Of a DNA stretch of 64,000 nucleotides, positions 7,153 to 63,935 are shown piece after piece. A model generated the notes under the pieces. It was not told the origin of the DNA, made no database searches, and saw only the letters and a list, made by a program, of their open reading frames with translations. The first letter of the stretch is position 1; every line of letters starts with the position of its first letter. The position numbers and the translations under genes are program-made. The stretch lies in the NCBI GenBank assembly GCA_038503035.1, contig JAVSML010020375.1, positions 62,001 through 126,000 of the forward strand, given 5' to 3'. This stretch comes from Crocodylus rhombifer. Its lineage: Eukaryota; Chordata; Crocodylia; Crocodylidae.

Positions 7153-7284
7153 ACCCCTCGGCGGTCAACTTGGACTCCTACGACGGGCCGGCCCTGGCCG
7201 AGGCGCTGACGTGGTACCTGCAGGAGCTGCCGGGCCCCCTGGCCCCGCCGGCCGTGTACAGCGAGCTGGTCCACGCTGCTCAAG
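7153..7284 (+). CDS. PIK3R3: p85-type BH (RhoGAP-like) domain exon A, upstream part of PIK3R3
   Basis: Internal coding exon of 132 nt with a strong acceptor (pyrimidine-rich ttctcccttcccag before 7153) and donor caag|gtacgc. Read with one base carried from the previous exon, it gives 43 residues beginning PSAVNLDSYDGPALAEAL and ending PPAVYSELVHAAQ. This aligns without gaps, apart from one residue, to p85-alpha PSVDLEMIDVHVLADAF...LPNPVIPAAVYSEM, the middle of the BH domain. Key shared points are PS-V-L, LA-A---YL-LP-P and P-AVYSE. The exon ends in phase 1 (G), matching the AG that opens exon B. BH domains of p85 proteins bind small GTPases and PTEN and sit between SH3 and nSH2. The mammalian PIK3R3 that I know lacks this domain. 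Assignment to PIK3R3 rather than PIK3R1 or PIK3R2 rests on the p55-gamma exon downstream on the same strand. The preceding exon was not found. Confidence 0.85.
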
Positions 7285-7757
7285 GTACGCCGCCCTCTCC
7301 GGCCGCACCGGGGCAAGTAGATGAGGGGGCATGCGAGCCCCCAGGCCTCTAGGCCTGGGGCCTGGGTGTCGGGTGCTGCCAGGGACGTGGGAGTGCTGTC
7401 AGCCCCGGCTGCCCAGGCCCGTGAGCTGCTCAAGAAGGGCACGGCCTCGTGCGTCTCCCTTTGCGTGGGCCCTGCTAGCCTCGGGCGCGGGGCTGGAGGC
7501 AGCATGGGAATCCCGGCCCCCGGCCCGAGCGCTCGGTCAAGGTCAAGGAATCGATCGCCTTTAAAAGCGATGCCCCGGCTCCCCTTGCCCATCGCCGGCC
7601 GCGCAGCTGGCGACCTCGCAACCTCGGGGGACGCTGGCGCCTCTCACCGGCCTGTCGTCCCCGCCGCGTCCATCGCTGGGACGATGCCTCGGGGAGCGGG
7701 TTGGGAGCAGCTGCAGCCAGACTGCGAGCTATTAATGAGCTGGGGGAGGTAGCTGGC

Positions 7758-7810
7758 GGTGTTAGTCTGCAGTCAGGGTAGATTTGCACCTTACAGACCA
7801 ACTCGGATCC
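7758..7810 (+). repeat. Interspersed repeat fragment ('gtagatttgcaccttacagacc' family)
   Basis: The sequence gttagtctgcagtcagggta-gatttgcaccttacagacca is the same family as the copies at 58965-59062 and 59149-59319. Only the first 50 bp or so are present. Confidence 0.6.
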
Positions 7811-8821
7811 AGCCCAGGGGCCCTGCTTCTCTGGGACTCTGCGGTTCAAAGGGTTTGGAGCCAGACTGCGCCCATCTCCGAGACGTGCATCTTGCCGGCG
7901 CAAGGCACCTCTGCCGGCAGCACGTCTCACTGCGGCCTGGGCTCGCGCTCAAACCCCCGCGCTGACCAGAGACCAGGGGCCTGAGGCTTTCCTCCGAAGC
8001 TCTGCACAGACCGCGCGTGGGGATTTTCCCCGGAGAGGACCAGCAACTTGAGGCTCTGGATGTGAGCTAGCAAGGGTAGGGCACGATTCCCTGGGTCCTC
8101 GTCCAGACGAACACGCGTGTGCGCGTGCACACGTGCCGAACCCAGCCGTGGGCCTTCTCCGGCTCGCCTCTGTGCCAGCAACGAGGCGCTGGCTTTGCTT
8201 CGCCAGGAACCGGGGAGATGGGTTGGAAAAATGCATTAAATCTCTCCAAATCCCACCAAGTATGCATGGGACGCTCTCTCATCTGGGCACCCGGCAGAGG
8301 TGGAGCGGTCTCCAGCGCTGACGATCCAGGAGCGGGGCCGGTGCAGCCTGCCCATGCCAGGAGGCCCCGCGACTGCCAAATCCCTGCAAGGCTGGCCCAG
8401 AAAGAAAGCATTATTACAATAGTTTGGCTCCACAGCGGGGACATTTTTCCTGTGATCTAGTCAGCTTTTGGCTTTATAAGGGCATAGACGAATCCTCGCT
8501 CTCTTAGTGCAGCGTGTTGGAAGCACCTTTCGGTCTCTGCAAAGTCTCTCCAGCCTCCGTGCAACCGTATGGGATTGCTTTAAAGGCTTCAGTTTAGTTG
8601 GCTTTTTCCCTTAAGCAACAGGCCACAGGCTCAACCCCGCAAAGGCCGGAGCAGATGGGGCCCCGGGCTGGGATCCTCTTGGCGGTCAAGAGGAAATGGG
8701 GACCAGTCCCATGGCACATCCTTCTGCATATAAGCTCCACCCCATCTCCATAGAAACAGGGCACTTTGCATATGTTAATGGCTCAGGGGAGGGGGAGGCG
8801 GGTCCCGATTCCCGTTCGGGG

Positions 8822-8905
8822 AGCTGAAAGATCCAGCGACTTGCCCAAGGCTAAGCAGAGAGTCTGTGGCAGGGGTGGGAATGTAGTTTTCTGACTTCAG
8901 GGCAC
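8822..8905 (-). repeat. MIR-like SINE fragment, antisense
   Basis: Reads gacttgcccaaggctaagca, gagagtctgtggcaggggtg and ggaatg-agttttctgact, which follows the antisense MIR core and tail (acttgcccaaggtcacacag ... gtggcagagctgggatt...tctgactcc). Ancient amniote SINE. Confidence 0.6.
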
Positions 8906-9109
8906 TCAGATGGAAAGGTATAGCCCAAAAAGCGCTGCAGGGGTGTTTCTAGAGGACTGGGTCCTGCCTCTCAGCTGGGTACAAGGGGAACCGGGGAGTT
9001 TGGTCCCCAAAGGGGGCTCCTGTCTCCCAGGAGACTGCCATGACCCCCAGGCTACGGGCTGGGCTTGGAGGGAGACTCCTCAACCCTCCTGTCAAAGATG
9101 CCAGACCCC

Positions 9110-9416
9110 CACGGCCAGATGGAGATGGATATGGGGGGGTTGCCACCTTCTGGAGTGGGGGCACAGCCTCCACCTGGGACCGCTTGAGCACCTATTATCG
9201 ACCCTTTACGGCAGCAGGACGCTGGCCGCCGCGGCCCCCCGCTTTCCCTGGGGCAGGTGCGGGCGTGATGTGCCAGGGCTGATGATGGTTGTGCTAAGAG
9301 GTTAGATGATGGATGTGTCTGGGCTGGTTTGGACAGGGCCGATCCTGCCTCAGGCCAGGGTTCGACTGTACGTGAGCTCTCCCACTCCTTCTGGTGCTCT
9401 GTGATTTTATGAAATG
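9110..9416 (+). mobile_element. CR1/L3-like LINE 3' end
   Basis: Shows the gttgccaccttctggagtgg-gggcacagcctccacctggg block, then cagcaggacgctggccgccg, ccctggggcaggtgcgg, gttagatgatggatgtgtct, gggctggtttggacagggcc, gatcctgcctcagg and a gtgattttatga tail, all shared with the copies at 16920 and 35795. Confidence 0.75.
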
Positions 9417-63139: not shown

Positions 63140-63211
63140 CCGAGGGCGCGCTGCCGGCCGAGACAAAAGGCCGGCTCTTTGGCAACTGGGGCTCAACTCA
63201 TCTGCCCCGCT

Positions 63212-63225
63212 CGCCCCGCCCCGCC
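63212..63225 (+). promoter_or_regulatory. Stacked GC boxes (Sp/KLF type)
   Basis: Overlapping CGCCCCGCCCCGCCCC sequence, the reverse of GGGGCGGGGCGGGG, 73 bp downstream of the last CCAAT box. It is a typical Sp1/KLF binding arrangement in a TATA-less promoter. Confidence 0.6.
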
Positions 63226-63304
63226 CCCCCGCCCGGCTCGCGTGGGTCGTACCACCTCTCCTCCACTGAAGGGGGGAGTCCCCCAAAAACAACACAGTAG
63301 CGGG

Positions 63305-63312
63305 TGACGTCG
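63305..63312 (+). promoter_or_regulatory. CRE-like site TGACGTCG
   Basis: One base off the palindromic CREB/ATF site TGACGTCA, within the CpG island about 520 bp before the p55-gamma ATG. Binding is inferred from the motif only. Confidence 0.35.
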
Positions 63313-63797
63313 TTTCAATGCTCTCCGCGCTTCTCCCACGTTTCAGAGAGACCGAGGGGTTCCTGCCGCCCCCTTTACCTTTTAGTGTAATGGACGCGCC
63401 CAGTTCTCACCCCCTCTCTGAGCGGTGGTACTGCCCAGCGCCCTCCCCCCCCGCCCCGCGCGGGGGAGTGGTTCAGTCCTCGGCGAGAGGCGGTTGGTGG
63501 CGGTTGGGCCCCTCAGAGCCGCTTAAAATGAGCGCGAGCGGGGCCGGGCGCCGGGCGGAGCGCAAGGGGCCGCCGGGCAGGCAACGCTGGCAGCGCGCGG
63601 ACGGGGGGCGGGCCGGGTACCGGCTCTGAGGGCAGTTCCCCCTCACACACATACACACCTTCCTCCTCCCAAAAAAACCCACCCTTGTTTCCTTTTTTTT
63701 AAAATTTTGATTTAAACCCGACGATCAAGGGAGTTTTTAATTTTTTTTTTTAAATAAATATTTCTGTTTAAAAACCGGGGGGGGGGGGCGCCCTCGG

Positions 63798-63887
63798 ATG
63801 CCCCCCCGTGTCCTCTCGGGCCTGCCGCCATGTACAATACGGTGTGGGCCATGGAGCGTGATGACCCCGACTGGAGGGAGGTGGTGA
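63798..63887 (+). other. Upstream ORF overlapping the p55-gamma start codon
   Basis: An ATG at 63798 opens a 29-codon frame (MPPRVLSGLPP...) that runs through the p55-gamma ATG in another frame and stops with TGA at 63885-63887. Its context (ctcggATGc) is weaker than that of the main ATG. If the leader includes it, leaky scanning would be needed to reach p55-gamma. The peptide itself resembles nothing I recognise. Confidence 0.5.
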
Positions 63888-63935
63888 TGCCCTACTCCAC
63901 CGAGCTCATCTTCTACATCGAGATGGACCCACCAG
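63830..63935 (+). CDS. PIK3R3: PIK3R3 p55-gamma first coding exon
   Basis: Encodes the 35-residue p55-gamma-specific N-terminus, starting MYNTVWAMERDDPDWREV and ending ELIFYIEMDPP, followed by one G and a donor (ccag|gtaggc). It matches the mammalian p55-gamma N-terminus almost residue for residue; the tail MPYSTELIFYIEMDPP is identical. The ATG is in strong context (gccgccATGt). p55-gamma is a regulatory and adaptor subunit of class IA PI3-kinase: this short N-terminal segment precedes two SH2 domains and the inter-SH2 coiled coil that holds p110. Those exons lie beyond the window. The exon follows a CpG-island promoter directly and has no acceptor upstream, so it is an alternative first exon. 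An upstream ATG at 63798 overlaps the start codon out of frame. Confidence 0.97.

Follow-up and report, generated by a model that had tools for sequence, protein, structure and literature searches.

We analysed a 64,000-nucleotide stretch of the Crocodylus rhombifer genome (contig JAVSML010020375.1, positions 62,001 to 126,000 of the forward strand; hereafter the window) and found three exons of a p85-type BH domain upstream of the exon that begins the coding sequence of p55-gamma, the short phosphoinositide 3-kinase (PI3K) regulatory subunit of PIK3R3. Our reading is that PIK3R3 here has two 5′ ends, giving a p85-gamma-type long form as well as p55-gamma, and we put its probability at about 0.86. 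The upstream 5′ end would give p85-gamma, with SH3, PR1, BH, nSH2, iSH2 and cSH2 in that order, and an internal first exon, lying about 49 kb downstream of the BH exons on the same strand, would give the short p55-gamma. Both 5′ ends would be spliced to a common nSH2 exon, so that the p110-binding half is shared.

The three BH exons, all on the + strand, are spread over 7.4 kb. Exon A (7153-7284) is equivalent to p85-alpha residues ~168 to ~211 and is in phase 1 at both ends, with an acceptor ending in TTCCCAG and the donor AAG/GTACGC (the slash marking the exon border). Exon B (13791-13992; p85-alpha ~212-278) enters in phase 1 and leaves in phase 2, between an acceptor ending in CCCGCAG and the donor CAG/GTGAGG. 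Exon C (14429-14514) enters in phase 2 after an acceptor ending in CCCCAG and carries the end of the BH domain up to DVAP/(A)LPPKPP, leaving in phase 1 with a G at the donor CCG/GTAGGG. In each acceptor the AG is preceded by a pyrimidine tract, and all four donors, counting that of the p55-gamma exon, are GT. Joined, and given one base (G) supplied from the preceding exon, the three exons encode 140 codons without a stop and cover the C-terminal ~70% of a p85-type BH domain (p85-alpha residues ~168-301). The open frame is weak proof by itself, because one reverse-strand frame is likewise free of stops. An initial annotation of the window had described three colinear exons with matching phases and a p85-type BH product, and had noted that the last BH exon and the p55-gamma first exon share a phase 1 end with a G; both descriptions held when the borders, 14514 and 63935 included, were read again and the product was compared with Pfam and the PDB.

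A chance origin of the exons was rejected. PIK3R3 N-terminal halves of six species (gharial, turtle, lizard, bowfin, coelacanth and shark) matched exons A-C in 18 of 18 comparisons, with scores of 36.6-89.7 bits, against 25.4 bits for the best match elsewhere in the window and a maximum of 27.3 bits over 20 dinucleotide-shuffled windows. The joined peptide scored 45.9 bits with the Pfam RhoGAP family PF00620 (cut-off 24.5; part of the domain) and matched the BH domain of p85-alpha in the PDB with an E value of 2.6e-20. A structure model of the whole gharial protein had low confidence (mean predicted local distance difference test score, pLDDT, 60.6; predicted template modelling score 0.32); within it, the BH part had pLDDT values mostly of ~75-84, with weaker blocks at 54-65. 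The 50 rows listed by Foldseek for this model were chains of p85-alpha or PI3K complexes, and VIA-align recovered the RhoGAP part.

The closest relative of the window exons is a Gavialis gangeticus protein annotated as PIK3R3 isoform X1 (P0001, 724 residues), which is 93% identical over the BH exons in the protein search. By tblastn, exon A was 93.6% identical to residues 157-203 of P0001 (over 7152-7292, a stretch longer than the exon), exon B 94.0% to residues 201-267, and exon C 84.4% to residues 265-296 (over 14418-14513, starting inside the intron); exon A was also matched by PIK3R3 of turtle, lizard, bowfin, coelacanth and shark. P0001 is a direct ortholog, but a database prediction. It has the order SH3-BH-nSH2-iSH2-cSH2 with the SH3 ligand residues intact, and it crosses the predicted junction DVAP/ALPPKPP into the SH2 domains. 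The same junction, P/ALPPKP, is present in 24 of 25 tabulated long PIK3R3 models, the bichir having P/AVPPKP, and it is likewise the junction of human p85-alpha and p85-beta (here and below, the human sequences were entered as background knowledge).

Identity of the window BH to other PIK3R3 proteins was 62-63% for turtle, 53% for lizard and 51% for bowfin, compared with 37-38% for PIK3R1 and 32% for PIK3R2, with human p85-alpha and p85-beta in the comparison. Across 25 PIK3R3 proteins it ranged from 36 to 93%, and 24 of these exceeded PIK3R1. In a maximum-likelihood tree of the BH domain, built from 28 proteins and the window, the window grouped with the gharial at 100% ultrafast bootstrap and the two grouped with birds at 63%; window and gharial differ at 9 of 136 aligned residues. 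An origin from PIK3R1 or PIK3R2, or from a misjoined contig, was rejected, given 93% identity to a gharial model that runs on into PIK3R3 SH2 domains and 37-38% or 32% to the other two genes. The initial annotation had proposed a PIK3R3 with a p85-type long form and had named a different gene or a misjoined contig among the things that would overturn it. The gharial identity and the tree agree with the proposal, and the worry of a misjoin is answered from an independent genome, since the gharial model has the BH joined to PIK3R3 SH2 domains. From these sequence comparisons, we assign the exons to PIK3R3 and not to PIK3R1, PIK3R2 or a misjoin.

Exons A-C begin part-way into the BH domain. For the part ahead of them, the SH3 exons and the first BH exons (residues 1-156 in gharial), no credible match was found within the window with gharial, turtle, lizard or bowfin queries; the best row for the gharial residues scored 33.5 bits on the opposite strand and contains a stop. 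These exons should lie upstream of window base 1, and the nSH2-iSH2-cSH2 part with its p110-binding coil falls past the other end of the window; the gharial ortholog has SH3 and PR1 as well as this C-terminal part.

The alternative first coding exon of p55-gamma (63830-63935, + strand) starts with an ATG at 63830, has 35 codons followed by a G, and is followed by GTAGGC. Its product is 88.6% identical to that of the human p55-gamma first exon and 54.3% to that of p55-alpha. With a phase 1 end and a G before GT at both 14514 and 63935, exon C and this exon could serve interchangeably as the 5′ partner of one downstream exon. That the BH exons and the p55-gamma exon form one gene is suggested by the gharial model. 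The 829 bases just 5′ of the ATG (63001-63829, + strand) are a possible p55-gamma promoter and 5′ untranslated region, where both GC and CpG rise. The observed-to-expected CpG ratio is 0.83 at 63001-63500 and 0.80 at 63501-64000, the median for the window being 0.45. This rise gives a promoter weak support, because it is matched in a number of other places: the ratio is equal or higher at, for example, 62001, 18251 and 17501, and it is 0.79 in the exon A region. The GC content is ~65% near the BH exons, falls to ~42-44% at 56-62 kb and rises again at the p55-gamma exon, and the two 5′ ends therefore lie in very different base composition.

To see how widely the long form occurs, we searched with the SH3-BH halves of turtle and caecilian PIK3R3 and considered the best 120 proteins from each, out of 274 and 540, respectively; in the first protein search and in the turtle search, scoring was confined to the ~8000 candidates with the most words in common. 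Comparison with the halves of PIK3R1, PIK3R2 and PIK3R3 classified 164 proteins among the matches listed. All except P0163 (Rhinatrema), which is PIK3R1, had an N-terminal half of PIK3R3 type (163/164), and 159 were of PIK3R3 type in both halves, leaving four without a PIK3R3 C-terminal half. Among the organisms with a modelled long PIK3R3 were sharks, rays, sturgeons, paddlefish, gar, bowfin, bichir, teleosts, coelacanth, caecilians, lizards, turtles, gharial and birds. Many bird entries carry the label 'P85A kinase' or 'regulatory subunit alpha', though both of their halves are PIK3R3. No mammal, frog or salamander was named among the best 120 of 274 or the best 120 of 540, searches in which no mammalian protein appeared as a positive control and which covered no mammalian genome. 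In the caecilian search the first PIK3R1 protein ranked only 112th among the 120 best from 540. A mammalian long form conserved to the degree seen in sharks or birds should therefore have appeared. The N-terminal half of PIK3R3 was thus likely lost on the mammalian stem. Since gene models of the long form run from sharks to birds, it is likely ancestral to jawed vertebrates. The initial annotation had supposed an ancestral full p85-gamma gene, of which this lineage kept at least the BH exons, and had suggested looking for the joined exons in other vertebrates. The search did recover long PIK3R3 models from birds, a crocodilian, turtles, caecilians, fishes and sharks, and the first supposition is in line with it; the second stands in that the exons are present, but retention is nothing special to this lineage, as many other groups have models of the long form, that of the gharial including its SH3.

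The long form would gain an SH3-PR1-BH module, which, by analogy with p85-alpha, would likely act by dimerisation through SH3-PR1 and a weaker BH-BH contact, together with adaptor contacts. The SH3 ligand residues and the PR1 prolines are nearly invariant in long PIK3R3. The position of Arg274, the reported GTPase-activating protein (GAP) finger of p85-alpha, falls in exon B and varies across PIK3R3 (Arg 76, His 14, Cys 11, Lys 11 and Gln, Asn, Gly or Ser 6, of 118), and the arginine expected of a Rab-GAP-type domain is absent from this position in the window. Given conserved SH3-PR1 residues and a variable Arg274 position, an adaptor or dimerisation role appears more likely than Rab-GAP catalysis, and strong GAP catalysis would not be expected of the long form. 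Divergence of the BH domain is a little faster than in PIK3R1, judged by the single PIK3R1 pair available for comparison, but of the same order. The residues that we take to be PTEN-contact and BH-BH-contact positions were also surveyed, although we place no reliance on them, their numbering being unsupported by the review consulted. For the present animal, we infer transcription, splicing, a promoter switch and the dimer or adaptor role.

Several observations weigh against a functional long form, or against the models on which it rests. In both crocodilians, the window and the gharial, the residue at the Arg274 position is His, the crocodilian stem branch of the BH tree is long (0.36), and the gharial SH3 is short by ~6 loop residues after residue 38, where the other seven aligned proteins are short by one column or none; the three together could signal relaxed constraint. 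Geotrypetes PIK3R3, at 36% identity to the window BH, falls under PIK3R1 (37-38%), and its model departs from that of Microcaecilia in that stretch. Most of the proteins behind the long form are automatic models, and only 106 of the 159 full-length PIK3R3 models have the expected PALPPKP where BH meets nSH2. Among the 53 without it, the 30 listed are all from birds, most are named 'partial', and they have other residues there, so exon C was missed or altered in those models; with 53 of 159 lacking the junction residues, single gene models are not trustworthy. Combined with the misnaming of the bird proteins, these odd residues may conceal the gene in surveys based on names or models.

The alternative that best survives these points is that the crocodilian BH exons are intact leftovers of an ancestral p85-gamma, with only p55-gamma mattering and the long form rarely or never made. 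The long stem branch, the His and the shortened SH3 loop all speak for it, as do the 9 of 136 differences between window and gharial, which are not obviously few for the slowly evolving DNA of crocodilians. We nevertheless consider it improbable: frame, splice sites and phase have been kept in all three exons despite a split from birds that we take to be more than 200 million years old, the gharial model is a complete 724 residues with its SH3 ligand residues intact, and long models are numerous in birds.

Far less probable still is that the upstream exons serve mainly a separate SH3-BH protein lacking SH2 domains, made by read-through of the exon C donor or by splicing away from it. The suggestion comes chiefly from P0037, a protein from an 'lgn'-marked source on a contig of 1719 bases, whose residues 1-303 match P0038 (Cyanocitta cristata) at 302 of 303 positions. 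P0037 is probably spliced RNA (or a processed copy), because its SH3-BH region is unbroken on 1719 bases while the window BH exons span 7.4 kb, assuming the same intron positions in the bird. It reads GKR exactly where P0038 continues ALPPKPPKP, as expected from read-through of an exon C donor G/GTAAG, and therefore it also counts among the points against the long form, in that it does not show the junction. P0021, P0009 and P0007 likewise end past the BH. These four BH-terminated proteins may be unspliced RNA, model noise or a real SH3-BH-only product; against the last, their tails are unlike one another by eye, an unspliced intron is frequent in RNA, read-through past exon C in the window runs for 43 residues to a stop and bears no evident likeness to the P0037 tail, and 159 of the 164 proteins among the matches listed run on into PIK3R3-type SH2 domains. 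As for exons from PIK3R1, PIK3R2, another RhoGAP gene or a misjoined contig standing upstream of the p55-gamma exon by accident, a general likeness to the p85-alpha BH (37% of 134 aligned residues) is all that favours it, and the gharial model with the same exons joined to PIK3R3 SH2 domains, the lower identities to PIK3R1 and PIK3R2 and the equally built long models of turtles, lizards, birds, fishes and sharks leave it a negligible chance.

Elsewhere in the window, Rfam gave nothing at gathering scores, and Pfam gave nothing on seven long open reading frame stretches chosen from the 103 listed. A 150-residue open reading frame at 4351-4803 had no Pfam match; its end presumably resembles the end of reverse transcriptases of CR1-type long interspersed nuclear elements. 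A degenerate GATGGTTGTGGTTATGGTT tandem array of ~18 copies of 19 bases, with one G/T-rich strand, occupies 33436-33786.

A gene with two 5′ ends of this kind has a close parallel in PIK3R1, which encodes p85-alpha and, from internal first exons, p55-alpha and p50-alpha. The domain order and the SH3 and PR1 positions are as in long PIK3R3, and in both genes the p55-type first exon starts with MYNTVW and the junction is AP/ALPPKPPKP. PIK3R1 is nonetheless a separate gene, with 37-43% identity to PIK3R3 in the BH and 78-91% in the SH2 and iSH2 parts. PIK3R2 (p85-beta) shares the order SH3-BH-nSH2-iSH2-cSH2 and the RhoGAP fold, its human BH being 31% identical to that of turtle PIK3R3; it is not known to have a p55-type first exon. 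Mammalian PIK3R3 is the same gene as that of the window, as the first exon attests, but differs in having no long form among the best 120 of 274 or 540 proteins.

In the parts of the literature consulted, mammalian PIK3R3 is described as encoding p55-gamma (PMC7458397). The passages seen of a 2015 PI3K phylogeny state that p55-gamma homologs 'lacked the rho-gap domain', and one sentence there uses 'p85-gamma' for Chondrichthyes without comment (PMC4617754). A 2022 amphioxus study assigns the three genes to two rounds of genome duplication, the section concerned leaving the SH3-BH half unmentioned (PMC8805411). Two papers dealing with mammals or cancer list p85-gamma, in a table or a sentence, as what PIK3R3 encodes (PMC10062291, PMC3816662), evidently a loose name. 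We found no description of long PIK3R3 in the open-access literature, judged by title and the start of the abstract, with subscription journals mostly outside this search. The long-form sequences themselves are not new, being already public as automatic gene models under names such as PIK3R3 or pik3r3b; the statement that PIK3R3 was ancestrally a p85 seems to be.

In the review passages seen and in one broad phylogeny, seen in part, PIK3R3 is treated as a short-subunit gene lacking both SH3 and BH. Were p85-gamma real and widespread, possession of the short form alone would be a derived, mammalian state. A wider picture, which we hold to be about evenly balanced between right and wrong, is that jawed vertebrates ancestrally had three p85s and that p85-gamma was maintained, among amniotes being dropped by mammals alone, so that mammalian PIK3R3 would be what is left, the product of an internal promoter. 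The archosaur BH would in this case be shedding the GAP arginine within an SH3-PR1-BH dimerisation and adaptor module, and a player in PI3K/PTEN coupling outside mammals would have been invisible to mammalian work. Should p85-gamma prove real and widespread, regulatory subunits may also have been undercounted by one in studies of birds, reptiles and fishes, and species with and without p85-gamma would form a natural experiment on the roles of SH3-BH beyond p110, in dimerisation and in contacts with PTEN and Rab/Rac.

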